Part shown: positions 39,624-61,049 of the stretch, in pieces
Numbering within the stretch: position 1 is the stretch's first letter
How the letters are laid out: each line of letters begins with the position of its first letter
Assembly (NCBI RefSeq): GCF_900109225.1
Contig: NZ_FNZK01000002.1
Coordinates: forward strand, 124,001-188,000
Source of the DNA: Propionispira arboris
GTDB taxonomy: Bacteria > Bacillota > Negativicutes > Selenomonadales > Selenomonadaceae
Length of the DNA stretch: 64,000 nt
Direction: 5' to 3'
Notes under the pieces: model-generated
Told to the model about the DNA's origin: nothing
The model's input: only the letters and a program-made list of their open reading frames with translations
The model's database searches: none
Position numbers and translations under genes: made by a program

Positions 39624-41675
39624 ATGACGAATAAATCAGGGTCATTATTTTTAGCTCCAGGAATCAAAGTAATGCAGCGTTTAGAGTTTTTGCATAAAAT
39701 ACTAGTTTTGCTTGTAATTTTATTGATCCCTATTCTTTTGTTATCATATGCATTTCATGGGGAAATTCGCAAAGTAACGGATTTTGCAGCCAATGAACGG
39801 CAAGGACTAAAATATGTTTTGCCGTTATCAGAACTGTTGATAGAGGTAAGTCAGGATACAGCGGACACTTTCAATTTGAATAATAGTGTGGAACTAATTA
39901 GTCGCATCGATCAAAATGATGCAGAACTTGGCAAACAATTAAAAACAACAGATCGTTGGCTTGAACTTAAAGCGATGCTCGAACACAAAAGTGTTACAAC
40001 ACGGCAGCAAGTTATTGATAAAACTACGGATTTGATTGCGATCGTTGGTGATTCATCGGGGTTAGTCCTTGATCCAGATATTGATAGTTATTATATAATG
40101 GATACAGCTATCGTGCAATATCCAGAGTTATTAAAAAAGACCAATCAAGCAGCAACGGCAGCGATCAAAGATTTATCAAAAACAAATAAAACAATGGATG
40201 AGCAAATAGAAATACCGATGCTTGCCGGATCTATTCAATCGACAATTGAAGGTGCGGAAATAGGTGTTAACAATGCTGTCAAAGCAAACACATCCTTAAC
40301 AAGCGGGTTAGAAGCTTTTGCTGCATCGAAGCGTGCAACAATGAGTCTATTGGAAGAAGTAAATCATACATTGTTGAAAAGTAGTGAAGAAAAAGGTACG
40401 GATGTAAATCGGCAATTGATACAAAATCAGTTAAAACAAGTAAATGATCAAAGTGCAGCAGCGTATCGTTTATATTTAAATCAGCTTGATACATTGCTTT
40501 TACAGCGTATCAATACGATTACAACCCATGAAAAATCAATTTTATGGGGGATATTTTTTGTTTTTATTATTGCGTTTTATTTGTTATTGGCATTGTATTA
40601 TTCTTTAAAACAGTCTATTATGTCAATTTTCGATGGGACACACAATTTTTCACAGGGAGATTGGCGTAATTCGATTCAAATTGTATCAAATGATGAGTTT
40701 GCAGAAATTACGGATTCATTAAATAAAGTTCGTGAAGGCATACGACCGATGATTCAGAGCATTTTGAATTCAACACAGCAATTAACATCATTGGCTGGTG
40801 AACTGACGACGATATCGACACATTTAGAACATGTAGCAGATATCATGGTACAATCTGTTTCTTTGGTTGATGGGGGCGGAAAACAGCAGCTGGGGGCAGT
40901 TCATAAAAGTTTGCAGGCCATCGAAAAGATGTCGACCAATATTGAACAAATTACAAATAATACAGTCGTTGCCAAGACTTCTTCTGAACAGACGGCGAAT
41001 GCCGCTCAAAAAGGAACTGTTTCTATTGATATGGCGGTGGAACAGATGTCAAATATTGAGCGAACAGTTCTTGATTCAGCAAATATTGTAAAAACTTTAG
41101 GTGAGCATTCACAAAAAGTTGGACATATTATCGATACCATTTCGGCAATTGCCGATCAGACGAATTTATTAGCTCTGAATGCTGCCGTTGAAGCGGCTAG
41201 AGCCGGCGAGCATGGTCGAGGTTTTGCTGTTGTTGCTGAAGAAGTTCGGAAATTAGCGGAACAATCGCAAGATGCGACAAAAGAAATTTCTCAAATCATA
41301 CAAGAAATTCAACAAGAAACTTGGAAAGCAGTGGATGCTATGCAAGCAGGCACTGGCGTTGTAAAAAATGGGTCCGAGGTAGTGAACACCGCCGGAAAAT
41401 CTTTTACAGAAATAGCAGATTTGGTCTATCATGTTTCAGGAACCATTCATCAGATTGCTGATACGGTTCAAATTATATCTCAGGCAAATCAAGAAATTAT
41501 AGTGACTGTTGATGAAATAAAAGATATTAGTAATGAATCGGTTCTTCAAACTAAGAATGTTTCGGAAGCTACGGGAGAACAAACACTTTCGATGAAAGAG
41601 ATTATCGTATCAAGTCAGACTCTATCAAAAATAGCGGATGAATTGCAGGGAACGGTGAAGTTTTTCAAAATATGA
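39624..41675 (+). CDS. Methyl-accepting chemotaxis protein
   Basis: About 683 residues. The first membrane helix (about 25-45) is [20 protein letters not shown] large helical sensor of about 280 residues follows, then the second helix ([20 protein letters not shown]), HAMP, and the signalling domain with the conserved tip [20 protein letters not shown] and [23 protein letters not shown] 39624 follows GGGAGGG; the upstream TTG at 39594 is rejected. No pentapeptide for CheR binding is seen at the end. No che genes are nearby. Directly behind its stop begin duplicated gene tails. Confidence 0.92.
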
Positions 41676-41755
41676 TTATTGTTATTTGTTACACAAGAGA
41701 TGATTTCTTTAATCTCTGGAACTGCATTTCTAATTCCGGCGGAATGGTCGAGCAA
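41676..41755 (-). pseudogene. Tail remnant of a Cof-type HAD phosphatase
   Basis: About 80 bp align to the 3' end of the intact HAD gene at about 46908-46992, at roughly 75-80% identity. The shared plus-strand string ATTCCGGC-GAATGGTCG corresponds to the HSAGMGNAVPEIK segment. Only this tail is left, immediately after the chemoreceptor stop codon. Confidence 0.7.
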
Positions 41756-41818
41756 TGTTGAAACTTCAATGGTGAAACTGGAATGAGAAAAATATATTTA
41801 AAAATTTTGATGAATTGG
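41756..41818 (+). pseudogene. Tail remnant of a Vat-type acetyltransferase
   Basis: GTTGAAACTTCAATGGTGAA and onward match the 3' part of the intact acetyltransferase (about 52733-52795) at about 90% identity, in the LQWWNWNEKKIFKNLDKL segment. It adjoins the HAD tail without spacing. The rest of 41819-42035 shows no recognisable gene. Confidence 0.75.
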
Positions 41819-42035
41819 CTTTGATGAATGATATCTATTGTAGGACTACATTATCAAATTACTGTCGATGGTGCGTGGACAATCATTAAAGATTATGGTA
41901 TGATAAAAAATATGTAAAAGCCACAAAAACTGTCAATGAAGCCGGATGCTCATGTTTTCAATGAAAAAATTTGTAAATATGTGTCATCTGGTTTTTTTTG
42001 CTGAAAATTCATTTAATTCAGGAGGAAAAAAATCT

Positions 42036-43280
42036 ATGTTAGAAGAAAAGAAAAAAAAATCAGGCGATATGCTTAGTAAGCTTGGTAACTGGATCATTGT
42101 TGCCACAGTTCTAGGGGCAGTTGTTGGGCTTGTTATGGGCGAACCAGCACATATGTTTGCACCTATAGGCGATCTTTTTATGCAGCTCATCAAAATGGTC
42201 ATTATCCCCATGGTTTTTTTCTCACTTGTCAGTGGCGCAGCAGCGCTGGGGAAATCGAGCAGTGCCGGCAAAATTGGTCTTGTAACTTTTATTTATTATG
42301 GGCTGACGACTGTAGTATCCGTGGTGCTGGGAATCGTTTTTGCTGAAGTCTTCAAACCGGGTGTTGGTATCAACATGCATGCTCTTTCAAGTGCAGCTGT
42401 CGATGTTGGTAATCTTGCTGAGAAGGCTGCAATGCCAGGATTTTGGGATACAATCATTGGTTTCATTCCAGCAAATCCGTTTAGGGCTCTGGTCGACGGC
42501 AATATTTTGCAGATTATTACATTTGCATTATTTGTAGGCTTTGCACTTGCAATGATGTCAAAGGAAAAGAAAGAGTTCATGTTGAAGATTTTTGATTATT
42601 TCACGGAAATATTCATTAAAATTATGCTCGCTATCATGTATATTGCGCCAATCGGCGTATTTTGCCTTATGGCAGATGCCACTGGAACCTTTGGTTATGA
42701 TGTGCTCGTTAAAATTGTGTATCTCATCGTTCTTTATGTCATCGTACTTGCTATTGTCACCTATGTTATGGTCGGCGGTACGGTCGCGGCTTTCTCGAAA
42801 TGCACAACCTACAAAAACTTTTTCAAGAGTATGTGGAAAGTACAGATTTTTGCATTTTCGACCGCTTCATCGATGGCCACACTGCCGCTCAATATGCGGA
42901 CAACGATCGATGAATTGCATGTTTCTCGTGAAACTACATCATTTGCCCTGCCACTCGGGGCTACAATCAACATGAATGGGAATGCGGCCTACTATGCAAT
43001 GGCGGCTTGTTTTCTTGCCCAAATGTATGGCATAGACCTTTCACTGTCGCAGTACATTGCGATCGTTGTTACAGCCTCTCTTGGTGCTGTTGGACAAGCT
43101 GGTGTTCCGGGACCAACACTGCTTGTTGTTGCAGTGCTTGCTGCAGCGAATATTCCAATGGATGCTTTACCTATCCTGTTTGGCGTTGACCGTATATTTG
43201 ATATGCTGCGTACTGCAGTAAATATCACAGGCGATGCAGCCTGTGCAACAATTGTTGATCAGTTTCGCAAGGAAGGCTGA
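42036..43280 (+). CDS. Dicarboxylate/amino acid:cation symporter (DAACS, GltP/DctA type)
   Basis: About 414 residues with eight membrane helices plus re-entrant loops. The serine-rich loop reads FAFSTASSMATLPLNMRTT, followed by the NMNG motif in LGATINMNGNAAYYAMAACF and the second loop GAVGQAGVPGPTLLVVAVL. The final DRIFDMLRTAVNITGDAA helix binds the substrate carboxylates and cations. Carries glutamate/aspartate or C4-dicarboxylates. ATG 42036 follows AGGAGGAAAA; an earlier ATG at 41946 lacks support. Ends at a compact terminator. Confidence 0.92.
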   Translation: MLEEKKKKSGDMLSKLGNWIIVATVLGAVVGLVMGEPAHMFAPIGDLFMQLIKMVIIPMVFFSLVSGAAALGKSSSAGKIGLVTFIYYGLTTVVSVVLGIVFAEVFKPGVGINMHALSSAAVDVGNLAEKAAMPGFWDTIIGFIPANPFRALVDGNILQIITFALFVGFALAMMSKEKKEFMLKIFDYFTEIFIKIMLAIMYIAPIGVFCLMADATGTFGYDVLVKIVYLIVLYVIVLAIVTYVMVGGTVAAFSKCTTYKNFFKSMWKVQIFAFSTASSMATLPLNMRTTIDELHVSRETTSFALPLGATINMNGNAAYYAMAACFLAQMYGIDLSLSQYIAIVVTASLGAVGQAGVPGPTLLVVAVLAAANIPMDALPILFGVDRIFDMLRTAVNITGDAACATIVDQFRKEG

Positions 43281-43310
43281 AAATTTTAAAAATTAATAAA
43301 TTTCATATTT

Positions 43311-43337
43311 GAAGCATCCTTCGGGGTGCTTTTTTTG
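43311..43337 (+). terminator. Terminator of the DAACS gene
   Basis: AAGCATCC-TTCG-GGGTGCTT: a short stem with a stable TTCG tetraloop followed by T residues. Confidence 0.88.
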
Positions 43338-43377
43338 TCGGGAAATATGTAAGGCTGATGTGTGTATGTATGTTTAC

Positions 43378-43405
43378 TTTACATTTTCATAACACAGGCG
43401 TAACA
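43378..43405 (+). promoter_or_regulatory. Triple Pho-box-like repeats, copy 1
   Basis: TTTACA, ATAACA and GTAACA start at 43378, 43389 and 43400, exactly 11 bp apart, as in tandem TT(A/T/C)ACA boxes bound by PhoP/PhoB-type regulators. A possible -10 (TAAAAT, 43426-43431) follows 20 bp later. In the second copy (47845-47872) all three hexamers are unchanged while spacers have drifted. Confidence 0.55.
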
Positions 43406-43464
43406 ACCAGTAGCGTTCCTTTTGTTAAAATGAAAATAAAGTATGAAAATGAGGAGGAACTGCT

Positions 43465-44256
43465 CTGAAACAAATTTATTTTTCGTCAACTCTAATGTGG
43501 AATGCATCTGTTCAAGAAATATTTTCCCTGGCGCAAGCCTATGAAGTTGGTGGTATTGAGTTTTGGGCAGAGCAGGCGGAGCTTTTTCATTACAATACGC
43601 GTGATATTCGAGTTTTGGCACAAAAATATGACATGAAAGTTGTTGTTCATAGTAAAAGCTGGGATCTCAATTTTGCTTCTATAAATAAGAGTATCCAAAA
43701 TGCATCGCTGCGCTCGATAAAAAAATCAATTTATTTTGCAAAATTGATTGGTGCCACTGAAGTGACGATTCATCCACCACGCCGGACGTTGCCAATTGAA
43801 GGCGCTTTTTATATAAAGAAAACACAAACTGGATTGGAAAAACTTCTCAACTATAGTGTGAAACAGGGGGTGCACCTTTCCTTAGAAATCATGGAAAAAT
43901 TACCAAACGAAATTATTACTACTCCTGAAACATTAAAAGCAATTTTAGGTACATTGTATGAATCTTTTTTTTACACGATAGATACGGCACATTGTATCGA
44001 TAAGAAAGAGCTTTTTGCGATTTTGGCGAGTATAGCTCCTGTATCGAAAATTCATATTAGCAATAAAAAAGGTAAGCAGCTCCATACGCCTCTGGATGAT
44101 GGGGATTTTGATTTTCGGCAGATATTGCCTCACTTGAAAGAATATAATGTCCCATTTGTGATCGAAGGGTTAGAAGTGGAGGCTACCCATCAAGTGCTAA
44201 AAAACAATATTGAGTATGTACAAAATATTTTAAAAGAAGCAGTATTGCAATCATAA
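43465..44256 (+). CDS. Sugar phosphate isomerase/epimerase-like TIM barrel, CTG start
   Basis: About 263 residues of the xylose-isomerase-like TIM barrel/AP endonuclease 2 family. Signatures are the first strand IYFSSTLMWN, GGIEFWAEQAELF, VHSKSWDLNFAS, EVTIHPPRR and FYTIDTAHCIDKKE with metal ligands. KIHISNKKGKQLHTPLDDGD is also present. The first ATG (43495) would remove the first beta strand. GAGGAGG (43451-43457) lies 7 bases before an in-frame CTG at 43465, which gives the full N-terminus. The duplicate at 47932 keeps the same CTG and ribosome site. It was followed ancestrally by fbpA; only a stump remains here. Confidence 0.78.
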   Translation: MKQIYFSSTLMWNASVQEIFSLAQAYEVGGIEFWAEQAELFHYNTRDIRVLAQKYDMKVVVHSKSWDLNFASINKSIQNASLRSIKKSIYFAKLIGATEVTIHPPRRTLPIEGAFYIKKTQTGLEKLLNYSVKQGVHLSLEIMEKLPNEIITTPETLKAILGTLYESFFYTIDTAHCIDKKELFAILASIAPVSKIHISNKKGKQLHTPLDDGDFDFRQILPHLKEYNVPFVIEGLEVEATHQVLKNNIEYVQNILKEAVLQS

Positions 44257-44272
44257 AAGGAGATAAAATAGT

Positions 44273-44302
44273 ATGGATTTTTTCAAAATTGAAAAACCAT
44301 AA
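44273..44302 (+). pseudogene. Nine-codon stump of the fbpA-like gene (copy 1)
   Basis: AAAAGGAGATAAAATAG and ATGG match the start of the intact solute-binding gene at 48032. The frame reads Met-Asp-Phe-Phe-Lys-Ile-Glu-Lys-Pro-stop. From the sixth codon on, the sequence matches the region behind fbpC (51885-51900). About 3.8 kb holding fbpABC was deleted from this copy. Confidence 0.8.
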
Positions 44303-44304
44303 GA

Positions 44305-44353
44305 ACAGCCCTCTAATTTGATGTCTTTATTTCACACCAAATTAGAGGGCTGT
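44305..44353. terminator. Hairpin terminator, copy 1 (bidirectional)
   Basis: ACAGCCCTCTAATTTG and CAAATTAGAGGGCTGT form a perfect 16-bp stem around a 17-base loop between the isomerase/fbp unit and the convergent katG. A homologous hairpin stands at 51906-51950. Confidence 0.75.
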
Positions 44354-44375
44354 ATATAGTTTATGATTGTATTAA

Positions 44376-46592
<2,217 letters not shown>

Positions 46593-46616
46593 CTACGTAT
46601 AATAGTTGTTTAAATG

Positions 46617-46631
46617 GAATAATTATTATAT
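46617..46631. promoter_or_regulatory. PerR-box-like operator upstream of katG
   Basis: The palindrome ATAATTATTAT (46619-46629) matches the core of the PerR box TTATAATNATTATAA, 45-60 bp upstream of the katG start. PerR commonly controls katG-type genes in Firmicutes. Confidence 0.5.
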
Positions 46632-46790
46632 ACAATATTCTTTCTATATCTACAAAACCCTTTTTTGTCTGGAGAAAAGGATTTTTCTTGCAAATATTTT
46701 TATAAACTTATTTTTGGCAGGATGTTTATAAGGCAGTTGAAAGCTAACTGATAGGTCTTTTTATTATATTTTCTCCATTATACAAAGAAG

Positions 46791-46841
46791 TACCCTATAG
46801 AGTAGACTCTTTTTTCATTGTCTACTACTCTATAGGGTACA
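46791..46841. terminator. Terminator between the HAD gene and katG
   Basis: GTACCCTATAGAGTAGAC pairs with GTCTAC-TCTATAGGGTAC, with a 3-base bulge. It stops the minus-strand HAD transcript before the katG promoter. A T-rich stretch lies on both sides. Confidence 0.7.
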
Positions 46842-46864
46842 TTTTAGAATTTCATGGAGGTATT

Positions 46865-47731
46865 TTATATGGTCAATGCTTTTTTGATTGCGGTACTTAC
46901 ACCTGAATTATTATTATCATTTGTCAAAAAAGAGGCAATTGCTTTAATTTCCGGAACGGCATTTCCCATTCCGGCAGAATGGTCGGGGAATTCTTCAAAC
47001 ATTGTAATATCATTTAAACCATCACCAATGACCATAACCTCATCTCTTTCAATCCCCGCATCTTTTGCAATACGTTTAAGTATCGCTCCTTTTGTTGCCG
47101 TGGCATCATTGATTTCAATATTTGTTGCAAAACTTGCCGATACAGATATACCATCGATCTTTTCCATTTGTTTTCGAAAAGCAGACATTTCTTCGGCATT
47201 ATCACCAAAACTAATAAATTTGGCAATTTTAATATCACTAGCCATAAAAGCATTTATATCTTTAATATATTGCATACGACGAAAATGGGGATCGTGGAGA
47301 AGGTATCGAAAAATCTGCAGCATACTAAAATTCGCATGATAGATACGGACTCGTTTAATCATATCGCAGAACAATTGAAACATTGTACTGGAAGTATAAC
47401 AACCCTTATTTGTATAAATTTCAATGGCGAACTTTTTCGTTTGCTGCATCATAGAAAATATTTTACGAGCTTTTTCCTTTTCAATATAAACACCATCAAT
47501 GCAATCTCCGGCAGCATTGAAATATTCAGCACCATTCATTGTAATACATTCACATTCTAATCCATATTTATCAAGAAGCAGCTTCACATCATCATAAAGG
47601 CGTCCTGTGGCAATGACAAAGCGTATATTTTGTTGCTGTGCTTTTTTTATCATATGACAATTTTCTGCGGAAATTTCATGACGGCTGTTTATTAATGTTC
47701 CATCCATATCGGCTGCAATAAATTTAATCAT
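46865..47731 (-). CDS. Cof-type HAD-IIB phosphatase
   Basis: 288 residues. HAD motif I is AADMDGTLINSRHEIS (nucleophile Asp in DMDGT), motif II lies in FVIATGR, motif III is the Lys of TATKGAIL, and motif IV is VIGDGLNDITMFEEF. The IIB cap domain occupies about residues 85-200. Family members dephosphorylate sugar phosphates, flavin precursors or similar. AGGAGG precedes the ATG on the minus strand. It sits between the two halves of the duplicated isomerase/fbp block; its own tail has a decayed copy at 41676. Confidence 0.9.
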   Translation of the reverse strand: MIKFIAADMDGTLINSRHEISAENCHMIKKAQQQNIRFVIATGRLYDDVKLLLDKYGLECECITMNGAEYFNAAGDCIDGVYIEKEKARKIFSMMQQTKKFAIEIYTNKGCYTSSTMFQLFCDMIKRVRIYHANFSMLQIFRYLLHDPHFRRMQYIKDINAFMASDIKIAKFISFGDNAEEMSAFRKQMEKIDGISVSASFATNIEINDATATKGAILKRIAKDAGIERDEVMVIGDGLNDITMFEEFPDHSAGMGNAVPEIKAIASFLTNDNNNSGVSTAIKKALTI

Positions 47732-47844
47732 TATTCAAATCCTCCTGACAAAATAATAGTAAATAATATAATAAGCGTATACCAAATTGCCACAATTGTA
47801 AATTTAATCCTAAAAAAAGCTCACTGGTATGCACGTATGCTTAC

Positions 47845-47872
47845 TTTACATTTTCATAACACAGACGTAACA
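47845..47872 (+). promoter_or_regulatory. Triple Pho-box-like repeats, copy 2
   Basis: TTTACA (47845), ATAACA (47856) and GTAACA (47867) keep the 11-bp period of copy 1. The -10 candidate has changed from TAAAAT to TAGAAT. This now drives the isomerase stump and fbpABC. Confidence 0.55.
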
Positions 47873-47931
47873 ACCAGTAGCATTACTTTTGTTAGAATGA
47901 AAATAAAGTATGGAAATGAGGAGGAACTGCT

Positions 47932-48015
47932 CTGAAACAAATTTATTTTTCGTCAACTCTAATGTGGAATGCATCTGTTCAAAATATTTTAAAAGAAGTA
48001 GTATTGCAATCATAA
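47932..48015 (+). pseudogene. In-frame 27-codon stump of the isomerase gene (copy 2)
   Basis: Begins with the same GAGGAGG ribosome site and CTG as the intact gene. It reads 17 codons of its start (KQIYFSSTLMWNASVQ), then jumps in frame to the last 10 codons (NILKEVVLQS) and the same stop. The deletion of about 708 bp joined CAAGAAATATTTT and CAAAATATTTT, so it passed through short homology. The stop lies 16 bases before the fbpA ATG. The frame is intact, so a mini-protein or coupling leader may still be made. Confidence 0.8.
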
Positions 48016-48031
48016 AAGGAGATAAAATAGC

Positions 48032-49057
48032 ATGGGGTTTTTAAAAAAACGAGTTTGGGCAGGTCTGCTCACTTTCTTTACGGTAGCTGTACTTTTAACA
48101 GGCTGCAGCAGTCAGAACGCAAGTGAAACTTCGCCTGATAAACTAAGCGGTAGTATAACCGTTTATACGTCACAACCGGAAGAAGATATTCAAAAATTGA
48201 TTGAAAAGTTTAATGAGGAGCAGCCAGATATTAAGGTAAATGTTTTCAGGAGTGGGACTGAGGAAGTGGTCAGCAAAGTGTTGGCGGAAAAAGAAACTGG
48301 AAATGTACAGGCCGATGTTCTTTTGGTAGCGGATGCAGCGACTTTTGAAGAACTCAAAGGAAAAGATTTGTTGATGAGTTACCAATCACCTGAACTTAAA
48401 GGAATTAGTAAAGAATACTATGATGCTGATTATACTTATACGGGTACGAAAATTATATCGACAGGAATTATTTATAATAAAAACATAATTAAAATAGCAC
48501 CAACTTCATATAAAGACTTAACAAAAGCAGAGTTTGAAAATAATGTTATTATGCCAAGTCCGCTTTATTCCGGCGCAGCTGCTTATAATTTGAGTGTGCT
48601 TACACGTACAAATGGTATTGGATGGGAATATTATCAATTGTTAAAAGACAAGGGAGCTAAAGTTGATAAAGGTAATGGCACAGTACAAAAAGCAGTGATT
48701 GATGGTCGTGTCGGCAGTGGTATTATTGTTGACTATATGGCATTGCGAAGTAAGAAAAAAGGTGCACCCGTTGAGTTTGTTTACCCAAGTGAAGGATCTT
48801 TAACTATTACAGAACCTGTTGGAATTTTAAAAGCTACAACACATGTAGAACTTGCTAAAGCTTTTGTTGATTTTATCTTATCGGAAGCAGGACAAAAGGT
48901 AACTGCTGAAATTGGCTATACGCCGATTAAATCTGGAGTAAAGGCACCGGAAGGATTCAAATCTGTTGATGAAATCAAAAATATAACCTACGATTTAGCG
49001 ACACTTGTCAAAGCGCGGCAGGATGATAAGGAAAAATTCAGCAGAATTTTCAATTGA
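48032..49057 (+). CDS. Extracellular solute-binding lipoprotein (FbpA/AfuA-like)
   Basis: 341 residues. Signal peptide with lipobox LLTGC (Cys25), then a type-2 periplasmic binding fold: GSITVYTSQPEEDIQKLIEK, EKETGNVQADVLLVADAATF, STGIIYNKN and EPVGILKATTHVELAKAFVD. This is the Fe(3+)/AfuA/2-aminoethylphosphonate binding-protein cluster. The iron-binding tyrosine pair is not obvious to me. AfuA members bind hexose phosphates, and the ancestral neighbour is a sugar-phosphate isomerase under Pho-like boxes, so a phosphate ester is a plausible ligand. AAAGGAGAT precedes the ATG. Confidence 0.85.
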   Translation: MGFLKKRVWAGLLTFFTVAVLLTGCSSQNASETSPDKLSGSITVYTSQPEEDIQKLIEKFNEEQPDIKVNVFRSGTEEVVSKVLAEKETGNVQADVLLVADAATFEELKGKDLLMSYQSPELKGISKEYYDADYTYTGTKIISTGIIYNKNIIKIAPTSYKDLTKAEFENNVIMPSPLYSGAAAYNLSVLTRTNGIGWEYYQLLKDKGAKVDKGNGTVQKAVIDGRVGSGIIVDYMALRSKKKGAPVEFVYPSEGSLTITEPVGILKATTHVELAKAFVDFILSEAGQKVTAEIGYTPIKSGVKAPEGFKSVDEIKNITYDLATLVKARQDDKEKFSRIFN

Positions 49058-49074
49058 AATATAGGAATCACTTC

Positions 49075-49103
49075 AAGACTGTGGCCTATCCACAGTCTTT
49101 TTT
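49075..49103 (+). terminator. Intercistronic terminator between the binding protein and permease
   Basis: AAGACTGTGG-CCTAT-CCACAGTCTT followed by TTTT. Placed right after the binding-protein stop, it would make more binding protein than membrane subunits. Confidence 0.8.
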
Positions 49104-49116
49104 ATAGGAGACTATT

Positions 49117-50763
49117 ATGCGTAAAATTGTAAAAGACCATCTTACAAAATCATTCCTCTATTTTACAATATTTTTTGTGTTTCTTATGCCGCTTCTCAAA
49201 TTATTTTTCATGAGTTTTAGTGGGATGGATGGTATTGGCATAGAAAATTATGTTTTGTTACTTCAGGATAATCGGACCCCTGAGGCAATATACAATACCA
49301 TGTTTATTGCTGTTTTTTCTACAGTGTTATCCCTTCTTTTAGGGGGACTATTTGCTTTTTTTATTGCCTATACCAATATACGAAAAAAACGGTTGATTGA
49401 ACTTATGGTATTGGCTCCATTTATCATTCCGTCGTATATTATTGCTCTTTCTTGGAGTGGCTTACTAGATACTGGAGGTGTGCTCCAGATGAGTTTTACC
49501 AATTTACATATTCCAGTTCCTAATATGTATAGTATAGGTGGTATCGTTTTTGTCATGGGCCTTTGTCATATGCCGATTGTTTATTTGTCTGTTCTTAGTA
49601 CCCTGCGTAAAATTTCGAAAGATTTGGAGTGGGCAGCCAGAACGTCTGGTTATACTACGTCGCAGACGCTTATGAAAATTAATTTTCCGCTTGCAATGCC
49701 AGCATTTATGAGTGGTGGCATTTTGGCATTTCTAGCAGCAATTGATAATTTTGCGATTCCAGCTTTTTTAGGAATTTCCGCTAATATACCAGTCCTTAGC
49801 ACTTCTATTTATGAAAAAGTCATTAGCTTTGGACCAAGTTCTTTTAATATGGCTGCCGCACTGTCTGTAATATTATCCATTATTGCAATCGGTGGCATTA
49901 CATTGCAAAATCTTTTGATTAGAGGAAGTTCTAATCAAGACAGTATGCAGGAAGATTTTTCAGCACGAATTTTTTTAAGTGAGCCAAGAAGGCGAAATTT
50001 GCAGTGGGGATGCATTGTTTTTTTAGGTAGTATAGATATGGTTCCCCTGCTTCATATGTTATTGACAGCTTTTCAAAAAAACTATGGAATGCAGATTGCA
50101 ATAGACAATCTTTCTTTGTATAATTTTTCTTTTTTAGCAAATAATCATGGTGTGTATCAGGCAATCTACAACAGTGCAATATTATCAATACTTACTTGTG
50201 TTATTTGTATTATTATAGGGACAGCCTGTGCCTATGCTAAAGTACGTTACCAAAATCGTGCGGCTATGGTCTTAGAATCCGCAGCATCATTAACCTATGC
50301 GATTCCAGGCATTGTAATTGCTTTAGCCATGATTTTTCACTGGGGAAAGATTCCACATGTTTATGGATCGATCGGAATTCTTATTTTGGCGTATAGTACA
50401 AGATATTTAATTTTACAAATAAAAAATAGTACAACAGCGATTCTGGCAATTCATCCTGCCCTCGAAGAAGCCGGAAAAATATTTGGTGCCAATGAGTTGC
50501 GAATTTGGAAAACAATAGTCAGTCCTTTACTTTTACGCCCAATTTTAACAGGGGCTTTTCTGATTTTTATTTCTGCACTGACTGAATTGAGTCTTTCCTC
50601 GATGCTTGCTTCTGCTGGAACAAAAACGGTAGGACTTTTTATTTTTAATCTTCAACAAGGGGGCGACTATAATTTATCCGCCGCTTTGTCAGTACTGATT
50701 GTCCTTATTGTTTTGCTAGCTTATGGTATAGTTGAATATTTAAATCGTCAAAAAACTTGTTAA
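49117..50763 (+). CDS. ABC transporter permease, fused two-module type (FbpB/AfuB-like)
   Basis: 548 residues with two tandem permease modules, each with about six helices. The coupling loops are EWAARTSGYTTSQTLMKINF in module 1 and EEAGKIFGANELRIWKTIVS in module 2, both of the EAA type. This fused architecture is usual for FbpB/AfuB permeases of iron, phosphonate and sugar-phosphate systems. ATAGGAG precedes the ATG. It follows the binding protein across an attenuating terminator and precedes the ATPase. Confidence 0.88.
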   Translation: MRKIVKDHLTKSFLYFTIFFVFLMPLLKLFFMSFSGMDGIGIENYVLLLQDNRTPEAIYNTMFIAVFSTVLSLLLGGLFAFFIAYTNIRKKRLIELMVLAPFIIPSYIIALSWSGLLDTGGVLQMSFTNLHIPVPNMYSIGGIVFVMGLCHMPIVYLSVLSTLRKISKDLEWAARTSGYTTSQTLMKINFPLAMPAFMSGGILAFLAAIDNFAIPAFLGISANIPVLSTSIYEKVISFGPSSFNMAAALSVILSIIAIGGITLQNLLIRGSSNQDSMQEDFSARIFLSEPRRRNLQWGCIVFLGSIDMVPLLHMLLTAFQKNYGMQIAIDNLSLYNFSFLANNHGVYQAIYNSAILSILTCVICIIIGTACAYAKVRYQNRAAMVLESAASLTYAIPGIVIALAMIFHWGKIPHVYGSIGILILAYSTRYLILQIKNSTTAILAIHPALEEAGKIFGANELRIWKTIVSPLLLRPILTGAFLIFISALTELSLSSMLASAGTKTVGLFIFNLQQGGDYNLSAALSVLIVLIVLLAYGIVEYLNRQKTC

Positions 50764-50816
50764 GTATAGAAGAAACTTTATGGTTATCAATTTAATAGGA
50801 GGTAAATTTAATCATT

Positions 50817-51845
50817 ATGAGTTTAAGGATAGAACATATTACCAAAAAATTTGATGCAGCCACGGTTCTTTCAGATATTGATCTGGAAATTCGAGACGGA
50901 GAATTTATCTCTATTTTAGGTCCTTCTGGTTGTGGGAAAACGACATTATTGCGTATTATTGCTGGATTTTTAACACCGACAAGCGGCGAAATTAAGTTTA
51001 ATGACAGGTTGTATGCAAGCAACAACTATTCTGTTCCTGTTGAAAAACGCAATCTGGGGATGGTTTTTCAATCGTTTGCACTTTGGCCGCATATGACGGT
51101 GAAAGAACATCTGGCATTTCCCTTACAAAGCCAAAAAGTGCAGCAGAGTAAAGACGTAGAAAATAGGATTATTGATAAAATTCTTGCGGTAACTGGGCTG
51201 GAAAAATTAGCCAACAGCCTTCCTGGAGAATTATCCGGTGGACAGCAGCAAAGAGTTGCTCTTGCCAGGGCTATGATAAATAAGCCGAAGCTTTTGCTTA
51301 TGGATGAACCACTTAGTGCATTAGATGCGGACTTGAAACTCAGTATGCGACAAGAAATACAGAATATACATAAAATCACGGGTGCAACTATCCTTTATGT
51401 TACCCATGACCAAAGTGAAGCACTGGCTATGTCAAATCGCATTGTCGTCATGAAAGATGGGACTGTTGAACAATTTGGTACGCCAGAAGAAATCTACGGA
51501 AAGCCACAAACTCTTTTTGTAGCAGCTTTTGTTGGTAGACATAATATGATTTCAGGAAAATGGGATGGCAAGCAGTTTATTTGTAAAAACGGTACTGCTT
51601 TTCCGGCGGTGCCGCCAGCAGAGTGTTTCATAGAGAAAGGAATTTGTCCGCTTCGTCCCGAAGAACTTGAAGTCAATCGAGATAATATTGGAATTTGTGT
51701 TGAAATTGTCAGCAAACAATACAATGGGCGGGAGTTTCTCTATACTGCAGTTGATGCCGATAAAAAAACTTATCATTTCTATGCAATCGTCACAATGCTT
51801 TTTTCCGCTGGACAAAAAATACATTTAACAAAGAAATCTGTTTAA
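50817..51845 (+). CDS. ABC transporter ATP-binding protein (FbpC/AfuC-like)
   Basis: 342 residues. Walker A GPSGCGKTTLL, signature LSGGQQQRVALARAM, Walker B LLLMDEPLSALD, switch His in YVTHDQSEALAMS. A C-terminal TOBE-like domain (about 240-340) begins after GRHNMISGKW. AGGAGGTAAATTTAATC precedes the ATG by about 12 bases. Energises the permease just upstream. The C-terminal domain is slightly shorter than in many FbpC proteins. Confidence 0.9.
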   Translation: MSLRIEHITKKFDAATVLSDIDLEIRDGEFISILGPSGCGKTTLLRIIAGFLTPTSGEIKFNDRLYASNNYSVPVEKRNLGMVFQSFALWPHMTVKEHLAFPLQSQKVQQSKDVENRIIDKILAVTGLEKLANSLPGELSGGQQQRVALARAMINKPKLLLMDEPLSALDADLKLSMRQEIQNIHKITGATILYVTHDQSEALAMSNRIVVMKDGTVEQFGTPEEIYGKPQTLFVAAFVGRHNMISGKWDGKQFICKNGTAFPAVPPAECFIEKGICPLRPEELEVNRDNIGICVEIVSKQYNGREFLYTAVDADKKTYHFYAIVTMLFSAGQKIHLTKKSV

Positions 51846-51905
51846 TGTTAGCTTTGGCAATTTTAGATTCACTGCAAAGAATCAAAATTTAAAAATCATA
51901 AGAAA

Positions 51906-51950
51906 AACCCTCTAATTTAATGCATCTATTTCACAGCAAATTAGAGGGTT
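51906..51950. terminator. Hairpin terminator, copy 2
   Basis: AACCCTCTAATTT and AAATTAGAGGGTT form a 13-bp stem homologous to the hairpin at 44305-44353. G-to-A and C-to-T changes in the outer stem are compensated. Confidence 0.75.
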
Positions 51951-51973
51951 ATATATAATTTTGGATCATATCA

Positions 51974-52010
51974 GCAGGAAAGATCAAAGAACCCTGCATT
52001 CATCCAGACT
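51974..52010 (-). pseudogene. Residual katG tail (copy 2)
   Basis: AAGATCAAAG and CTGCATTCAT align with the codons of the KatG ending NADRFDLA at about 44378-44404, with a few substitutions. Beyond 52010 no katG sequence is recognisable. Its place after the homologous hairpin shows that this copy also once carried katG. Confidence 0.6.
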
Positions 52011-52030
52011 AAAAATTCATTCTGTAATAC

Positions 52031-52092
52031 TTGTGTAAGCCTCCAATGTTAGGTAAAATAAAACTAATATTTAGAGGTCTTTGCTATGACAA
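52031..52092. repeat. IS-end-like hairpin repeat, copy 2
   Basis: TTGTGTAAGCCTCCAATG, then GTAAAATAAAACTAATATT, matches 16561-16600 with few differences; the stem is partly eroded. A frame starting ATGACAAATAAAAAAATAG soon stops. The region up to 52194 has no other gene. Confidence 0.5.
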
Positions 52093-52194
52093 ATAAAAAA
52101 ATAGAGTGGACTGTATGAATCAAATGCTTTTAAAAGAATTGAATCTGAATTAACGAAACGTTGATGTTGAATTTTGCGAAAAGAGGTGAACAGG

Positions 52195-52836
52195 ATGATT
52201 GGACCGAATAAAAACATGCTATATCCTAATGAAAATATCAAGACAGTTTGTTATATTAGCAATTTGCCGAAACGGGTTAATGTTGAGATTGGAGACTATA
52301 CCTACTATAGTGATAACAAAAAGTCACCAGAGAATTTTTACGATAACATAAAACATCATTATGAATTTTTAGGCGATAAATTGATTATTGGAAAATTCTG
52401 TGCGATTGCGGAAGGCATCACCTTTATCATGAATGGTGCGAATCATCGAATGGATGGTTTTACTACCTATCCATTTTATATTTTTAGTGGTGGCTGGGAA
52501 AAGGTTACACCTCAACTTGAACAGCTGCCTTTTCGTGGCAATACGGTCATTGGTAATGATGTATGGATCGGTCAATATGTGACGATTATGCCAGGCGTGA
52601 AAGTGGGGGATGGCGCAATTATCGCAGCAAATTCAACTGTTGTAAAAGATGTGGAACCTTATTCCATCGTTGGCGGAAATCCTGCTGTACCCATCAAAAA
52701 ACGGTTTTCTGACGAGATCATTGAAATATTGTTGAAACTTCAATGGTGGAACTGGAATGAGAAAAAAATATTTAAAAATCTTGATAAATTGGTTTCGGCA
52801 CATGACATTGCTACTCTTAAAAATTTAGTTACATAA
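52195..52836 (+). CDS. Vat-type xenobiotic O-acetyltransferase
   Basis: About 213 residues of the left-handed beta-helix (hexapeptide) acetyltransferases in the VatA-D/CatB group that acetylate streptogramin A or chloramphenicol. Features are IGDYTYYSDNKKSPENFYDN, GKFCAIAEGITFIMNGANHR with the catalytic His, GNDVWIGQYVTIMPGVKVGDGAIIA and YSIVGGNPA. ATG 52195 follows AGAGGTGAACAGG. Real substrate unknown; similar enzymes are common in environmental bacteria. Its 3' end is duplicated at 41756. Confidence 0.88.
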   Translation: MIGPNKNMLYPNENIKTVCYISNLPKRVNVEIGDYTYYSDNKKSPENFYDNIKHHYEFLGDKLIIGKFCAIAEGITFIMNGANHRMDGFTTYPFYIFSGGWEKVTPQLEQLPFRGNTVIGNDVWIGQYVTIMPGVKVGDGAIIAANSTVVKDVEPYSIVGGNPAVPIKKRFSDEIIEILLKLQWWNWNEKKIFKNLDKLVSAHDIATLKNLVT

Positions 52837-54832: not shown

Positions 54833-55001
54833 CTTATTTATGATGAAAAAACTATAATATTTACGGTAATGTAGTTTCAGTGACAAGGGCTTTATGGAAT
54901 GTGGTATTATCTGAAAATTTGGTAAAGCAGGATAATATCTATCTAACGTGTATAGTGCAATAAAATTAAATTTTGCATGAATAATCTGACAAATCTTGTT
55001 C

Positions 55002-55045
55002 TTGTTGTGCACTTGTGCAGTCTATATAATGAAATCATGCACAAG
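55002..55045 (+). promoter_or_regulatory. Promoter and inverted repeat of the PTS regulator
   Basis: TTGTTG (55002-55007), 17-bp spacer, TATAAT (55025-55030). CTTGTGCA (55012-55019) and TGCACAAG (about 55038-55045) form an inverted repeat straddling the -10 element. Confidence 0.6.
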
Positions 55046-55101
55046 AGAAAAAACAGAAGGAGAGGCGATTTTCAATAGTTATCAATGAAAGAAGGCAGGA
55101 A

Positions 55102-57087
55102 TTGTTGAAGGTATTGGAAACAGCCTTTTATGATACACCGCTGACAGTAGAAAAAATTGCCGGTCTGCTCAATACATCACCGCGGACTGTGCGCTATGAT
55201 CTTGATTCATTGGAAGGGGAGTTCAAAAAGCGGAAGTGGAAGCTTTATCGCAAAGCTCATCGTGGTGTATGGATTGAGCTTGCAGCTGAATCCGAAAAGA
55301 TAGTCGGGGAGCTAACGAATGATGCGTACATATATAGCAAAGAAGAGCGCTATAATAGTATCATTGTGAATCTATTGGATGGTGAGGATAGCATATCTAT
55401 CGATTCTTTGGCAAATAAGCTAAAAGTCAGTCGAAATACACTGCTTATGGATCTTCGGGAAGTGCGGCGGATACTGCAAAACCGGAAAATTGAGTATTAC
55501 TCGAAGCGTGGTCTTGGTATTTGGGCTGAGGGAGATGAACAATCCGTGCGAGATATGCTCATTCATATCTTTGCCAAAAGGCTGCATGATTTTAAGAATT
55601 TTCCGGTACGTGAGGATACGGATGAAATCTCGGCACTATTCAAGGAGTATTCGATAAATTTGCCAGTGAAAGATATCGCGGAGTTCTTTCTTGCACTTAT
55701 GCGTAAAAATAAGATTATGGATAATGATACTTCCATGAATCGCATGATTTGTGCGTTGTTGGTACAATTCAAGCGACTTCAGCAGGCGTGCGGTATCGAG
55801 GATCGCGGTAAGGTTGAATTTGTTTCAGATGAAGGAATGGCACTGCGACAGTTGTCGCAGGAGATTGCATCTCACATGAAATCTTATCATATGGGGTTTC
55901 AAGATAGTAAGGAAATATCTTTTATTATGCGTGAGCTTTTGCATAGTAAGATCTATCTTTTTCCGACAAACAAAAAGCAAAAAATATGGAAAAAAGATGC
56001 AAACATTGCTTCGATGGATCTTGCGAAGAATTTTATTGAGTATGTGCAGATGTGGTTGGGCGATATTTATATGGATGATGATGAGCTTATCTATGGGCTG
56101 GCCCTTCATTTGCAGCCAGCGGTTGAACGTGCTAGAGCCGGTATTGAACTGACAAATCCACTTTTATCTCAGATTCGTCGGCAATATAGCGATCTCTTTG
56201 ATATTGCACTGAAGGCGGCAGAAAAGCTTAGCAGGAAGATGAATATCAAACTTTCGGATGATGAGATCGGTTATCTGACCATACATCTTGGAGCAGCGAT
56301 TGAGCGGCGGAAAATACGTCATGTAAAGAAGCTTGAGGTTCTGCTTGTCTGTGGTAATGGTATTGGTACAGCCAATCTTTTGGCAATGACATTGGGAAAC
56401 AATATGTCTTATATTCATATAAAGAAGATAATTTCGCTCTATGAGTTGGAATCATGGGATCTTTTTGATATCGACATCGTTATTAGTACAATTTCATTAA
56501 ATCTGAAAGATAAGGCAGTGCTGCGGGTGTCGCCGATTCTCACGGATGTCGAGATACCAATTATCGAAAACCAGATTCAGTACTTTTATAACAAAAAATT
56601 TGCACCGGAAAAACTGGAATCACCGGTTCAAATTCAGCGACCAGGGCTTGCTGCTGTTCTTAATTTAGATGTTATTCAACTTGATGCAGTCGCTGTTGAT
56701 TGGGAAGATGCGATACGGCAGTCTGGACGTTTGTTAGCTGCAAATGGTGCAATTGAGGAAAGATATATTGATTGTATGATTCGGTGCGTACGAGAAATTG
56801 GTCCGTATACCGTTGTTGGTCCAGGTATTGCAATGCCACATTCGCGTTGTGAAGACGGTGTGAAAAAGGTTGGTGTAAGCTTTCTACGATTGGTCTCACC
56901 AGTGTGTTTTGGCAATACAGTAAATGATCCTGTAGATCTTATTTTTGCTTTTAGCACAGTAGATGAAAAAGCACATTTAAAAATTATGGAGGATCTATGG
57001 GAAATCTTTACGGACAAAAATGCATTGGAATATTTGCGAAAATGCAAGACGAAAGAGGCTGTTATCAGCTTTATCCAGCAGCGGTAA
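55102..57087 (+). CDS. PRD-containing transcriptional regulator with EIIB- and EIIA-like domains (MtlR/LicR type)
   Basis: 661 residues from the TTG at 55102. Order: N-terminal HTH_11 (IAGLLNTSPRTVRYDLDSL), a second HTH (LANKLKVSRNTLLMDLREV), two PRD domains (about 180-400), an EIIB-like segment (LLVCGNGIGTANLLAM) and an EIIA type-2 domain (GIAMPHSRCEDG, about H580). It senses PTS phosphorylation and activates the following PTS genes. The frame is open upstream and encodes INERRQELLKVLE, a typical regulator N-terminus, behind GAAGGAGAGG (55056-55065). The true start may therefore be ATA at 55075. Confidence 0.9.
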   Translation: MLKVLETAFYDTPLTVEKIAGLLNTSPRTVRYDLDSLEGEFKKRKWKLYRKAHRGVWIELAAESEKIVGELTNDAYIYSKEERYNSIIVNLLDGEDSISIDSLANKLKVSRNTLLMDLREVRRILQNRKIEYYSKRGLGIWAEGDEQSVRDMLIHIFAKRLHDFKNFPVREDTDEISALFKEYSINLPVKDIAEFFLALMRKNKIMDNDTSMNRMICALLVQFKRLQQACGIEDRGKVEFVSDEGMALRQLSQEIASHMKSYHMGFQDSKEISFIMRELLHSKIYLFPTNKKQKIWKKDANIASMDLAKNFIEYVQMWLGDIYMDDDELIYGLALHLQPAVERARAGIELTNPLLSQIRRQYSDLFDIALKAAEKLSRKMNIKLSDDEIGYLTIHLGAAIERRKIRHVKKLEVLLVCGNGIGTANLLAMTLGNNMSYIHIKKIISLYELESWDLFDIDIVISTISLNLKDKAVLRVSPILTDVEIPIIENQIQYFYNKKFAPEKLESPVQIQRPGLAAVLNLDVIQLDAVAVDWEDAIRQSGRLLAANGAIEERYIDCMIRCVREIGPYTVVGPGIAMPHSRCEDGVKKVGVSFLRLVSPVCFGNTVNDPVDLIFAFSTVDEKAHLKIMEDLWEIFTDKNALEYLRKCKTKEAVISFIQQR

Positions 57088-57112
57088 GCTGCTCTTCAGG
57101 GGATGAGAAACA

Positions 57113-57550
57113 ATGTTGGCAAACTATATAGATGAAAGATATATTCGTACGAATGTCAGCTGTAAAAGCTGGCAGGATGCCATAAGAGCCGGAGCAAGTC
57201 TTTTATTGCAAGAGGCGTGCATTGAGCCTCGTTATATCGAGGCGATTATTCGTCATCATATGGAACTTCCATATATGGTTATTGCCCCGGGAATTATGCT
57301 GGCTCATGCGCGATCAGAGGAAGGTGCGCGGGCGGTGGGGATTAGTATAATTACGCTGGCTGAGCCGATTGTCTTTGGCAGCGAACTAAACGACCCTGTG
57401 AAGCTGGTTATTACATTGGCAACAACGGATGGGAAAAAGCATATGAAGCTTCTGTCATCGCTTATGGAGTTTTTAATGAAAGAGGAGCTGGTTAGGCGGC
57501 TTATGGCGGCAAAAGAAGTTGCTGAAGCTGTTAGTATAATCAAATCATAA
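57113..57550 (+). CDS. PTS EIIA component, ascorbate/mannitol-fructose type (UlaC-like)
   Basis: 145 residues. EIIA type-2 fold with the phospho-histidine in IMLAHARSEEGA (H65) and DPVKLVITLATTDGKKHMKL. It receives phosphate from HPr and passes it to EIIB. GGGGATGAG precedes the ATG. It resembles the EIIA domain at the end of the upstream regulator, as expected for a dedicated regulator-transporter pair. Second gene of a six-gene operon. Confidence 0.9.
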   Translation: MLANYIDERYIRTNVSCKSWQDAIRAGASLLLQEACIEPRYIEAIIRHHMELPYMVIAPGIMLAHARSEEGARAVGISIITLAEPIVFGSELNDPVKLVITLATTDGKKHMKLLSSLMEFLMKEELVRRLMAAKEVAEAVSIIKS

Positions 57551-57564
57551 AAGGAGAGAAAATT

Positions 57565-57840
57565 ATGAAAATTTTAGTATGTTGTGGTAGTGGACTGGGA
57601 AGCAGTTTCATGATTGAGATGAACATCAAGAAAGTGCTTGTTGAGCTTGGCGTTAACGCAGAGGTCAATCATAGTGATTTATCATCTGCCGCTAGTATCA
57701 AGTCGGATATTTATGTCGGTACGCGCGATATTGCATCGCAGCTTACCTCGCTTGGCGGTGTTGTTGTTTCATTAAATAATATGATTGATAAAAACGAACT
57801 TAAGGAAAAAATAGCAGAAGCGATTGAAAAAATTAAATAG
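57565..57840 (+). CDS. PTS EIIB component, ascorbate family (UlaB/SgaB-like)
   Basis: 91 residues. The phospho-cysteine loop KILVCCGSGLGSSFM lies at the N-terminus (C7 in the CGSGLGSS pattern). Phosphorylates the incoming substrate at the EIIC channel. AAAGGAGAG precedes the ATG; the next gene follows within 15 bp. Confidence 0.92.
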   Translation: MKILVCCGSGLGSSFMIEMNIKKVLVELGVNAEVNHSDLSSAASIKSDIYVGTRDIASQLTSLGGVVVSLNNMIDKNELKEKIAEAIEKIK

Positions 57841-57854
57841 GAGGTCGATTTTAC

Positions 57855-59129
57855 ATGTTGAAATTTATACTTGATATATTGAGCGTACCAGCTGTTCTGA
57901 TTGGTATTGTCTCGATGATCGGCTTGATTGCACTGAAAAAAAGCACTTCGGATATCCTAAAGGGAACAATTAAGACCATTATGGGAGTTCTTATTCTCGG
58001 TGGTGGTGCTGGTGTTGCTGTTGGAGCATTAAGCTTCTTTGGCACAATGTTTCAGCAGGGATTTGGGATTACAGGTGTTGTGCCGCATAATGAAGCCATT
58101 GTTGGTATGGCACTCAAAGAATATGGCACACAGACAGCACTCATCATGGCTTTTGGTATGGTTGTCAATGTCCTGATTGCACGTTTTACACCGCTCAAAT
58201 TCATTTTTCTTACAGGGCATCATACTCTTTATATGGCGTGCATGATCGCAGCAATCCTTGTCGTTGGAGGTGTGCAGGGGCCAACACTTATCATCATAGG
58301 TTCACTTATTCTTGGCTTTATTATGGCTCTTTTTCCAGCGATCGCGCAGCCGACGATGCGTAAAATCACGGGGACTGATGATGTTGCCTTTGGTCATTTC
58401 GGAACAATCGGCTATGTTTTCTCAGCTTGGATTGGTTCGATTGTTGGGGATAAATCACATACGACAGAAGATATCAAATTTCCCCAGGGCCTTACCTTTT
58501 TGCGTGACTCGTCAATTGCAATCGCACTTGTTATGCTTGTGCTCTTTTTGATTGTGGCAGTTGCTTCAGGTCCGGCTTTTGTAGAAGAAAAACTCAGTGG
58601 TGGTCAGAACTTCCTGGTGTTCTCGGTTATTCAGGCAATTACGTTTGCGGGTGGTGTATATATTATCCTTGCTGGTGTACGCTTGATCCTCGCTGAAATT
58701 GTTCCGGCATTCACAGGGATTGCCACTTCACTTGTACCGAATGCGAAGCCGGCAATTGACTGTCCAATTGTTTATCCGTATGCACCAAACGCTGTACTTA
58801 TCGGTTTTCTTTCCAGCTTTGCCGGTGGTATCGTTGGCATGGTGGTCCTGCTTCTTATGGAAAAATCATTTCCTGGTTTGCCAATTATTCTGCCAGGCGT
58901 TGTACCACATTTTTTCTGCGGGGCAACTGCAGGTGTATTTGGTAATGCAACAGGTGGTTTGCGTGGCTGCATATGGGGTGCATTTGCCCAAGGATTGCTT
59001 ATCACGTTCTTGCCAGTCTTGCTTATGCCTGTCCTTGGTGGTCTTGGTTTTGCTAATACGACCTTTAGTGATGCAGACTTTGGTGTTGTCGGAATAATTC
59101 TTGGCAACATTTTACAGTTTATTAAATAA
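57855..59129 (+). CDS. PTS EIIC component, ascorbate family (UlaA/SgaT-like)
   Basis: 424 residues with about 10-11 membrane segments. UlaA-family blocks are FGTMFQQGFGITGVVPHNEA, FTPLKFIFLTGHHTLYMACM, EDIKFPQGLTFLRDSSIAIA and CPIVYPYAPNAVLIGFLSSF. The family takes up L-ascorbate in E. coli, but homologues next to split transketolase genes may carry other pentoses or acids. TAGGAGG precedes the ATG. No ulaD-G homologues occur here, which argues against plain ascorbate catabolism. Confidence 0.92.
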   Translation: MLKFILDILSVPAVLIGIVSMIGLIALKKSTSDILKGTIKTIMGVLILGGGAGVAVGALSFFGTMFQQGFGITGVVPHNEAIVGMALKEYGTQTALIMAFGMVVNVLIARFTPLKFIFLTGHHTLYMACMIAAILVVGGVQGPTLIIIGSLILGFIMALFPAIAQPTMRKITGTDDVAFGHFGTIGYVFSAWIGSIVGDKSHTTEDIKFPQGLTFLRDSSIAIALVMLVLFLIVAVASGPAFVEEKLSGGQNFLVFSVIQAITFAGGVYIILAGVRLILAEIVPAFTGIATSLVPNAKPAIDCPIVYPYAPNAVLIGFLSSFAGGIVGMVVLLLMEKSFPGLPIILPGVVPHFFCGATAGVFGNATGGLRGCIWGAFAQGLLITFLPVLLMPVLGGLGFANTTFSDADFGVVGIILGNILQFIK

Positions 59130-59144
59130 ATTTTTATTTATTGT

Positions 59145-59177
59145 GACTGCTGTGTCAGGCAGCAGTCCATTTTTTTA
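59145..59177 (+). terminator. Hairpin with T-run between the PTS and transketolase genes
   Basis: GACTGCTG and CAGCAGTC form an 8-bp stem followed by CATTTTTTT. It directly precedes the ribosome site of the transketolase gene, so it probably reduces rather than abolishes downstream expression. Confidence 0.7.
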
Positions 59178-59191
59178 AGGAGGGTGCAGAT

Positions 59192-60010
59192 TTGAATACA
59201 ATAGAACTCGAAAAAATTGCGAAAAAAATTCGAATGGATACTATAAAAATGATTTACAAGGTAAAATCCGGTCATCCCGGAGGGGCACTGTCCATAGCCG
59301 ATATCTTGGCTATACTTTATTTTGATGAGATGCATGTAGATGCCAAAAATCCACAAATGCCAGATCGTGACCGCTTTGTCTTGTCAAAAGGGCATGCAGC
59401 AACTTCACTTTATGCAGCACTTGCGGCAAAGGGGTATTTTGCGCGCGAAGAACTCTGGACGCTGCGCCAATATCAATCGATTCTACAGGGGCATCCGGAT
59501 ATGAAGGTAACACCCGGACTCGATATGTCTTCCGGTTCTTTGGGACAGGGCCTTTCTATTGCCAATGGTATGGCACTTGCAGCAAAACTGCAAAAAAAAG
59601 AGTTTCGTGTCTATGCAATCCTTGGCGATGGTGAACTCGATGAAGGACAAATTTGGGAAGCAGCCATGACAGCACCGCAGTTCAGACTGGACAATATAGT
59701 TGCTATTATCGATCAAAATGGTTTTCAAATCAATGGAACGACAGATGACGTTATGAAGGTTGCATCAATTGAAGATAAGTTTCAGGCGTTTGGCTGGAAT
59801 GTGCTTTCCATTGATGGTAATGATATTTCTGCCATTAAAGATGCTTTTCAAAAAGCAAAAAACTGTAAAGACAGACCTACGGCAATTATAGCAAAAACTT
59901 TAAAGGGTAAAGGGGTTTCCTATATGGAAGACCGTTGTGAATGGCACAGTGGGGTGCCGACTGAAGAACAATATCAGCTGGCAATGCAAGAGCTGGGAGG
60001 TAATGAATAA
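59192..60010 (+). CDS. Transketolase, N-terminal subunit
   Basis: 272 residues: the thiamine-diphosphate-binding half of transketolase as a separate chain. Motifs are KVKSGHPGGALSIADILAIL, RDRFVLSKGHAATSLYAAL, and the ThDP motif LGDGELDEGQIWEA. The start is TTG 59192, after AAGGAGGG. The partner subunit starts with its ATG overlapping the stop by one base. Pairing with the PTS genes suggests that the imported sugar phosphate enters as a ketose or aldose substrate of the pentose phosphate network. Confidence 0.92.
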   Translation: MNTIELEKIAKKIRMDTIKMIYKVKSGHPGGALSIADILAILYFDEMHVDAKNPQMPDRDRFVLSKGHAATSLYAALAAKGYFAREELWTLRQYQSILQGHPDMKVTPGLDMSSGSLGQGLSIANGMALAAKLQKKEFRVYAILGDGELDEGQIWEAAMTAPQFRLDNIVAIIDQNGFQINGTTDDVMKVASIEDKFQAFGWNVLSIDGNDISAIKDAFQKAKNCKDRPTAIIAKTLKGKGVSYMEDRCEWHSGVPTEEQYQLAMQELGGNE

Positions 60011-60942: not shown

Positions 60943-60968
60943 ACATAAACTTATTTTCAAGCAATGCT
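60934..60968. repeat. 35-bp exact repeat, copy 1 (end of transketolase)
   Basis: The sequence starting GCAAAATAAACATAAACTT and ending TTTTCAAGCAATGCT, spanning the last codons and stop of the transketolase gene, occurs again without change at 62318-62352. Confidence 0.9.
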
Positions 60969-60993
60969 GCTTTTTATTGATAGTGATGACTAT

Positions 60994-61049
60994 AAAAAGG
61001 CATAGGTTCCAGTGAGAAGCGTAAAATCACAGGAACCTATGCCTTTTTT
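60994..61049 (+). terminator. Terminator of the PTS-transketolase operon
   Basis: AAAAAGGCATAGGTTCC and GGAACCTATGCCTTTTT pair over 17 bp, ending in a T-run. Confidence 0.9.

Follow-up and report, generated by a model that had tools for sequence, protein, structure and literature searches.

A split transporter locus with two predicted Pho boxes in Propionispira arboris fits tandem duplication with complementary gene loss

Tandem duplication-random loss (TDRL) is known from the gene order of animal mitochondria. The Propionispira arboris locus described here resembles it in having tandem copies from which one of each gene appears to have been lost at random, with pseudogene stumps between the survivors, whereas it differs from the mitochondrial cases in lying on a bacterial chromosome, in involving an operon with a common promoter and terminator, and in having kept both promoter copies. 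In the SNAP hypothesis (Brandis and Hughes 2020; PMC7055797) a segment is duplicated, different genes are lost from each copy and the new order is trapped, the typical selected gene being a nutrient transporter. Its authors noted that modern species had offered no direct evidence for it, and proposed looking for intermediates, e.g. pseudogenes with matching active copies, as a test (PMC7055797). The locus shares with SNAP a duplicated segment, different losses per copy, a trapped rearranged order, stumps with active partners and the inclusion of a transporter. In contrast, SNAP concerns tens of kb or more, whereas the unit here measures about 9 kb; the dosage selection and the essential genes that SNAP invokes are putative for this locus. 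The same group has reportedly also treated positive selection as a cause of irreversible gene-order rearrangement, to go by the title of Cao et al. from 2022. Alterations of operon clusters by segmental duplication and asymmetrical loss have been described as well, but their precise mechanisms could not be determined (PMC8046335). The process proposed there for the rearrangement of bacterial operons is the same, and unlike those cases the present locus has stumps and junctions that are readable.

Changes in bacterial gene order are usually traceless, and the locus constitutes a rare visible record of the steps. Here the stumps and junctions have survived and relatives with an undivided operon exist, so that the passage from a single operon to two transcription units with a common control box is directly legible. 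The arrangement agrees with a tandem duplication and complementary losses of the TDRL and SNAP kind, and we consider it very probable that a tandem duplication in a common ancestor was followed by different deletions in each copy, leaving the operon split. Within the 64,000-nucleotide stretch of DNA that was analysed (the window), the features are as follows.

41672..41755, minus strand: 3' relic of a HAD-family phosphatase gene (copy 0), 79% to 46907-46991 and 80-81% also inside P. raffinosivorans
41756..41834, plus strand: 3' relic of a Vat-type acetyltransferase gene (copy 0), joined without a gap to the HAD relic, 92% to 52730-52795
41946..43280, plus strand: SDF-family dicarboxylate/glutamate symporter (PF00375), between relic 0 and block 1
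43360..43464, plus strand: block 1 promoter with the predicted Pho box TTTACA-N5-ATAACA-N5-GTAACA
43465..44256, plus strand: intact TIM-barrel isomerase/phosphodiesterase-like gene (PF01261; weak CbiR match), probable CTG start
44257..44290, plus strand: block 1 stump of the substrate-binding protein (SBP) gene, Shine-Dalgarno sequence and start codon joined to the terminator; SBP-permease-ATPase deleted
44291..44372, no strand: bidirectional terminator hairpin of block 1, fold -27.5/-32.5 kcal/mol, z -7.4/-9.4
44376..46592, minus strand: intact katG, catalase-peroxidase, NF011635 at 1314 bits (cut-off 981)
46865..47731, minus strand: intact Cof-type HAD phosphatase, divergent from the block 2 promoter, TIGR00099 above cut-off
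47827..47931, plus strand: block 2 promoter, predicted Pho box as in block 1, 93% to block 1
47932..48015, plus strand: isomerase remnant of block 2, its first and last codons fused in frame into a 27-codon ORF, 708 bp deleted
48032..49057, plus strand: SBP, PhnS2-like, TIGR03261 at 164 bits (cut-off 392.75 not reached)
49117..50763, plus strand: fused permease, PhnU2-like, TIGR03262 at 158.5 bits (cut-off 593.25 not reached)
50817..51845, plus strand: ATPase, PhnT2-like, TIGR03265 at 325 bits (cut-off 457.7 not reached)
51882..51971, no strand: terminator hairpin of block 2, 80% to block 1, z -4.1/-4.8
51972..52003, minus strand: katG 3'-end stump, from self-alignment
52022..52082, no strand: IS256-like element end, a scar next to the missing katG copy; two further genomic sites match at 89-93%
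52195..52836, plus strand: intact Vat-family acetyltransferase, streptogramin A acetyltransferase model NF000311 at 311.8 bits (cut-off 300)

The isomerase frame (43465; remnant 47932) has no upstream ATG, and a CTG lies six bases after AGGAGG in both blocks and both species; most likely, the gene starts at the CTG at 43465. The Vat ORF opens at 52174, with the start at about 52195.

The tandem duplication with complementary gene loss was put forward by a sequence-only reading, and all the segment pairs that it described were found. Self-alignment of the window gave five homologous pairs, all gene-specific, in direct orientation and collinear, as is expected under TDRL of segments from neighbouring copies. 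They comprise promoter plus isomerase start (43360-43525 versus 47827-47990, 93%, E 7e-66), isomerase end plus SBP start (44217-44288 versus 47976-48047, 92%, E 2e-22), terminator plus katG 3' end (44283-44405 versus 51882-52003, 80%, E 5e-23), and the 3' parts of HAD (41672-41756 versus 46907-46991, 79%, E 3e-13) and Vat (41756-41821 versus 52730-52795, 92%, E 3e-20), so that the adjacent tails do match the intact HAD and Vat genes, as had been claimed. The difference counts given at the time were only approximate, since promoter plus isomerase start differs at 11 of 161 aligned positions and not at about 7 of 145. Each gene is intact in one copy only: isomerase, SBP, katG, HAD and Vat have one intact copy and one stump as the other copy's remnant, and permease and ATPase have a single intact copy and no stump. 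The symporter is single, with no second copy in the window by self-alignment.

It would have spoken against the duplication if the segments were a mobile repeat found elsewhere. A search of the whole 4.26-Mb assembly located the five segments at this locus only, with no further copies. It is therefore very hard to believe that a mobile or regulatory repeat was copied independently to these places, beside genes that had always been separate: a short IS-like repeat is present at 52022-52082, but each of the five segments belongs to particular genes, the pairs are collinear and no copies lie elsewhere in the genome, and the joined operon is present in 11 relatives.

At the junctions, the block 2 isomerase has retained 84 of 792 bp; the 708 bp (236 codons) that are gone left the frame intact, and the deletion sits at the short match TGTTCAA/TGTACAA (TGTNCAA). 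In block 1 the ribosome-binding site and start codon of the SBP gene abut the terminator, about 3.8 kb having been removed. Of the block 2 katG the last 30 bp remain, and the IS256-like end follows some 20 bp beyond. This end repeat occurs at three places in the genome (52022-52082, 16562-16602 and, in a further stretch, L081:1509-1568), at the last of which it directly precedes a transposase-like fragment that matches a decayed PF00872 transposase of the sister species. A Pfam search revealed no IS256-type transposase in this genome, the decayed copy being in the sister species. As the peptide that follows the L081 repeat gave no significant hit in Pfam but does match that decayed transposase, we infer the IS assignment, and the element may have played a role in the loss of katG. 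The HAD-Vat relic at 41672-41834 is the outcome that would be expected if one copy lost everything between HAD and Vat. Neither the katG upstream region compared with the gap before Vat nor the flanks of the relics showed homology above shuffled controls, so that the unit ends cannot be placed exactly; no direct repeats able to seed the duplication were found at these ends.

The age of the arrangement follows from a comparison with Propionispira raffinosivorans DSM 20765 (Selenomonadaceae), the nearest named genome and the sole other species of the genus in the collections searched. It has the same layout, stumps and junctions, with 96.6% identity over 16.4 kb. Relatives with a split order but without stumps would have weakened the duplication model; the sister species carries the very same stumps. 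The rearranged order has been fixed in a lineage by complementary loss, as SNAP envisages, with the same junctions in two species. An assembly artefact might be suspected in a draft genome of 40 contigs, but is practically out of the question given that this layout recurs, 96.6% identical, in a separately sequenced species. Of the 43 informative sites in the five shared segments, 42 unite the block 1 copies of the two species with each other, and likewise the block 2 copies; a single site favours the third grouping and none groups by species. The duplication and the losses are therefore older than the species split, and there is no sign of later exchange between the copies. A separate duplication in each species and a recent gene conversion were both rejected, no sites supporting them. 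Since the split is known in two species only, the duplication and the losses cannot be ordered.

The remnants drift between the species, unlike the surviving genes, all of which are open in both species with dN/dS values of 0.06-0.36; the intact isomerase is 98-99% identical in the sister species. The mini-ORF of the block 2 isomerase shows four changes between the species, all non-synonymous, and the block 1 SBP stump a 1-bp indel; the HAD relic differs by 12.5%, versus 6.5% for the intact HAD gene, and the Vat relic (41756..41834) by 7.6%. The dS values between the species are 0.02-0.07 for katG, isomerase and flanking genes and 0.13-0.31 for the block 2 HAD, SBP, permease and Vat genes (HAD 0.21, Vat 0.31). 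This contrast, together with a difference of 7-21% between the copies, which equals or exceeds the divergence of the two species, could point to a second copy that arose not by duplication but by the arrival of a diverged allele of another strain next to the native one, with complementary loss afterwards. We consider this unlikely, as a divergence of 7-21% is also expected of an old duplication, and other stretches of the window likewise differ by 5-9% between the species, which makes the block 2 value not unusual.

The undivided state was found in relatives. The isomerase gene is joined, directly upstream and on the same strand, to the SBP, permease and ATPase genes in 11 genomes from three other Negativicutes families, the ATPase gene being cut by a contig end in one of them. 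As the joined operon occurs in these other families, the split order is derived, and the joined isomerase-SBP-permease-ATPase operon is most likely ancestral. The trees of isomerase, SBP and permease agree on the clade beside which Propionispira falls; that of the ATPase gives no clear placement. None of the other 187 Selenomonadaceae genomes searched has the isomerase, which is present elsewhere in the class. A PHP-domain gene follows the operon in all four relatives examined, and no such gene was found downstream of the ATPase gene in Propionispira. A relative with a single joined block that included katG had been named as support for the duplication. The isomerase-to-ATPase part of this expectation was borne out, but the adjacency of katG was not: none of the stretches retrieved around the joined operons of the 11 relatives contained katG, HAD or Vat. 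katG of this type occurs in 16 of 381 genomes of the class and in none of the Selenomonadaceae outside the genus. For Vat, 12 of the 381 have a match at E <= 1e-60, and beyond Propionispira similar genes occur in 10 further Negativicutes genomes. Most likely, the association with katG, HAD and Vat would be particular to Propionispira. Junctions, sister species and joined-operon relatives together support the tandem duplication with complementary loss.

The pattern TTTACA-N5-ATAACA-N5-GTAACA is present on both promoters and intact in both species. With at most two mismatches it has nine matches in the genome, versus two and one in controls, and the further matches precede genes for a PstS-type binding protein, pstB-phoU, DUF47-Pit, a purple acid phosphatase and another ABC transporter. 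The "Pho-like boxes" of the sequence-only reading are accordingly upheld as credible predicted Pho boxes, both by these counts and by the phosphate genes downstream. A match before a second ABC transporter lies on the same contig outside the window, about 24 kb past Vat (contig position 200939). As both transcription units have a Pho box, their joint control by phosphate starvation was probably retained. The terminators of blocks 1 and 2 both fold far better than shuffles; known RNA elements were not found.

The genes downstream of the block 2 box had been read as fbpABC. They do form a transporter operon, but the Fbp name does not hold: the best curated family match for all three proteins is PhnS2-PhnU2-PhnT2, a putative 2-aminoethylphosphonate transporter (TIGR03261/03262/03265), although all three, unlike members of that system, fall below the curated cut-offs. 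The isomerase belongs to the PF01261 TIM barrels and matches CbiR weakly. Considering this kinship of transporter and isomerase together with the Pho control, the predicted role is likely the uptake and breakdown of a phosphorus compound.

The history that we propose would begin with a unit of about 9 kb, consisting of HAD (minus strand), Pho-box promoter, isomerase, SBP-permease-ATPase, terminator, katG (minus strand) and Vat (plus strand), which would have been duplicated in tandem in the common ancestor of P. arboris and P. raffinosivorans, most simply to three copies. Copy 0 would have collapsed to the HAD-Vat tail fusion, and copy 1 would have lost SBP-permease-ATPase as well as HAD and Vat. 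Copy 2 would have lost the isomerase body by the in-frame 708-bp deletion at the TGTNCAA match, and katG next to the IS256-like end. Every gene thereby survives once, one operon having become two transcription units, each with a Pho box. Different genes are gone from each copy; in SNAP it is the loss of essential or high-fitness genes from different copies that prevents segregation, a role for which the genes here would be candidates. As neither copy is complete, a collapse back would be impossible without gene loss.

The number of copies depends on the HAD-Vat relic, which lies left of block 1, so that one tandem duplication is insufficient for the observed order. Exactly two occurrences are seen of HAD, of Vat and of the promoter-to-katG part, as there should be if there were two copies only, the left one having collapsed to the HAD-Vat tails and the promoter-to-katG interior having been transposed to the right of the symporter. 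This is a possible course of events, short of a probable one: it requires a cut-and-paste step, but no recognisable element is present near 43350 or 46600, and tandem arrays grow readily to three copies. On balance we lean mildly towards three copies. Against the proposed history as a whole it counts that the relics of HAD and Vat each span no more than about 80 bp, and that none of the 11 relatives has the full unit including HAD, katG and Vat. For the mechanism of the first duplication, as for selection for transporter dosage under phosphate shortage, we infer rather than observe; given the Pho boxes on both promoters, phosphate shortage is a candidate for the selecting niche. Tentatively, then, a Pho-regulated transporter unit may have been amplified to three tandem copies under phosphate shortage and reduced by complementary deletions to a split, co-regulated set, a natural SNAP fossil fixed across speciation. 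The locus may in addition serve as a template for scanning other genomes for pairs of promoter plus stump.

Elsewhere in the window, a segment of about 8.6 kb (54886-63468) with a PRD/PTS regulator, an EIIC-GAT permease and split transketolase genes has no counterpart at the same position in P. raffinosivorans. A region with TGTCATATGACATATGTCATTTTAC is present in two copies that are 86% identical, one (1219-1347) after an FtsX-like permease gene and the other (2761-2887) overlapping the end of a histidine kinase gene. Finally, a perfect direct repeat of 35 bp is found at 60934-60968 and 62318-62352.
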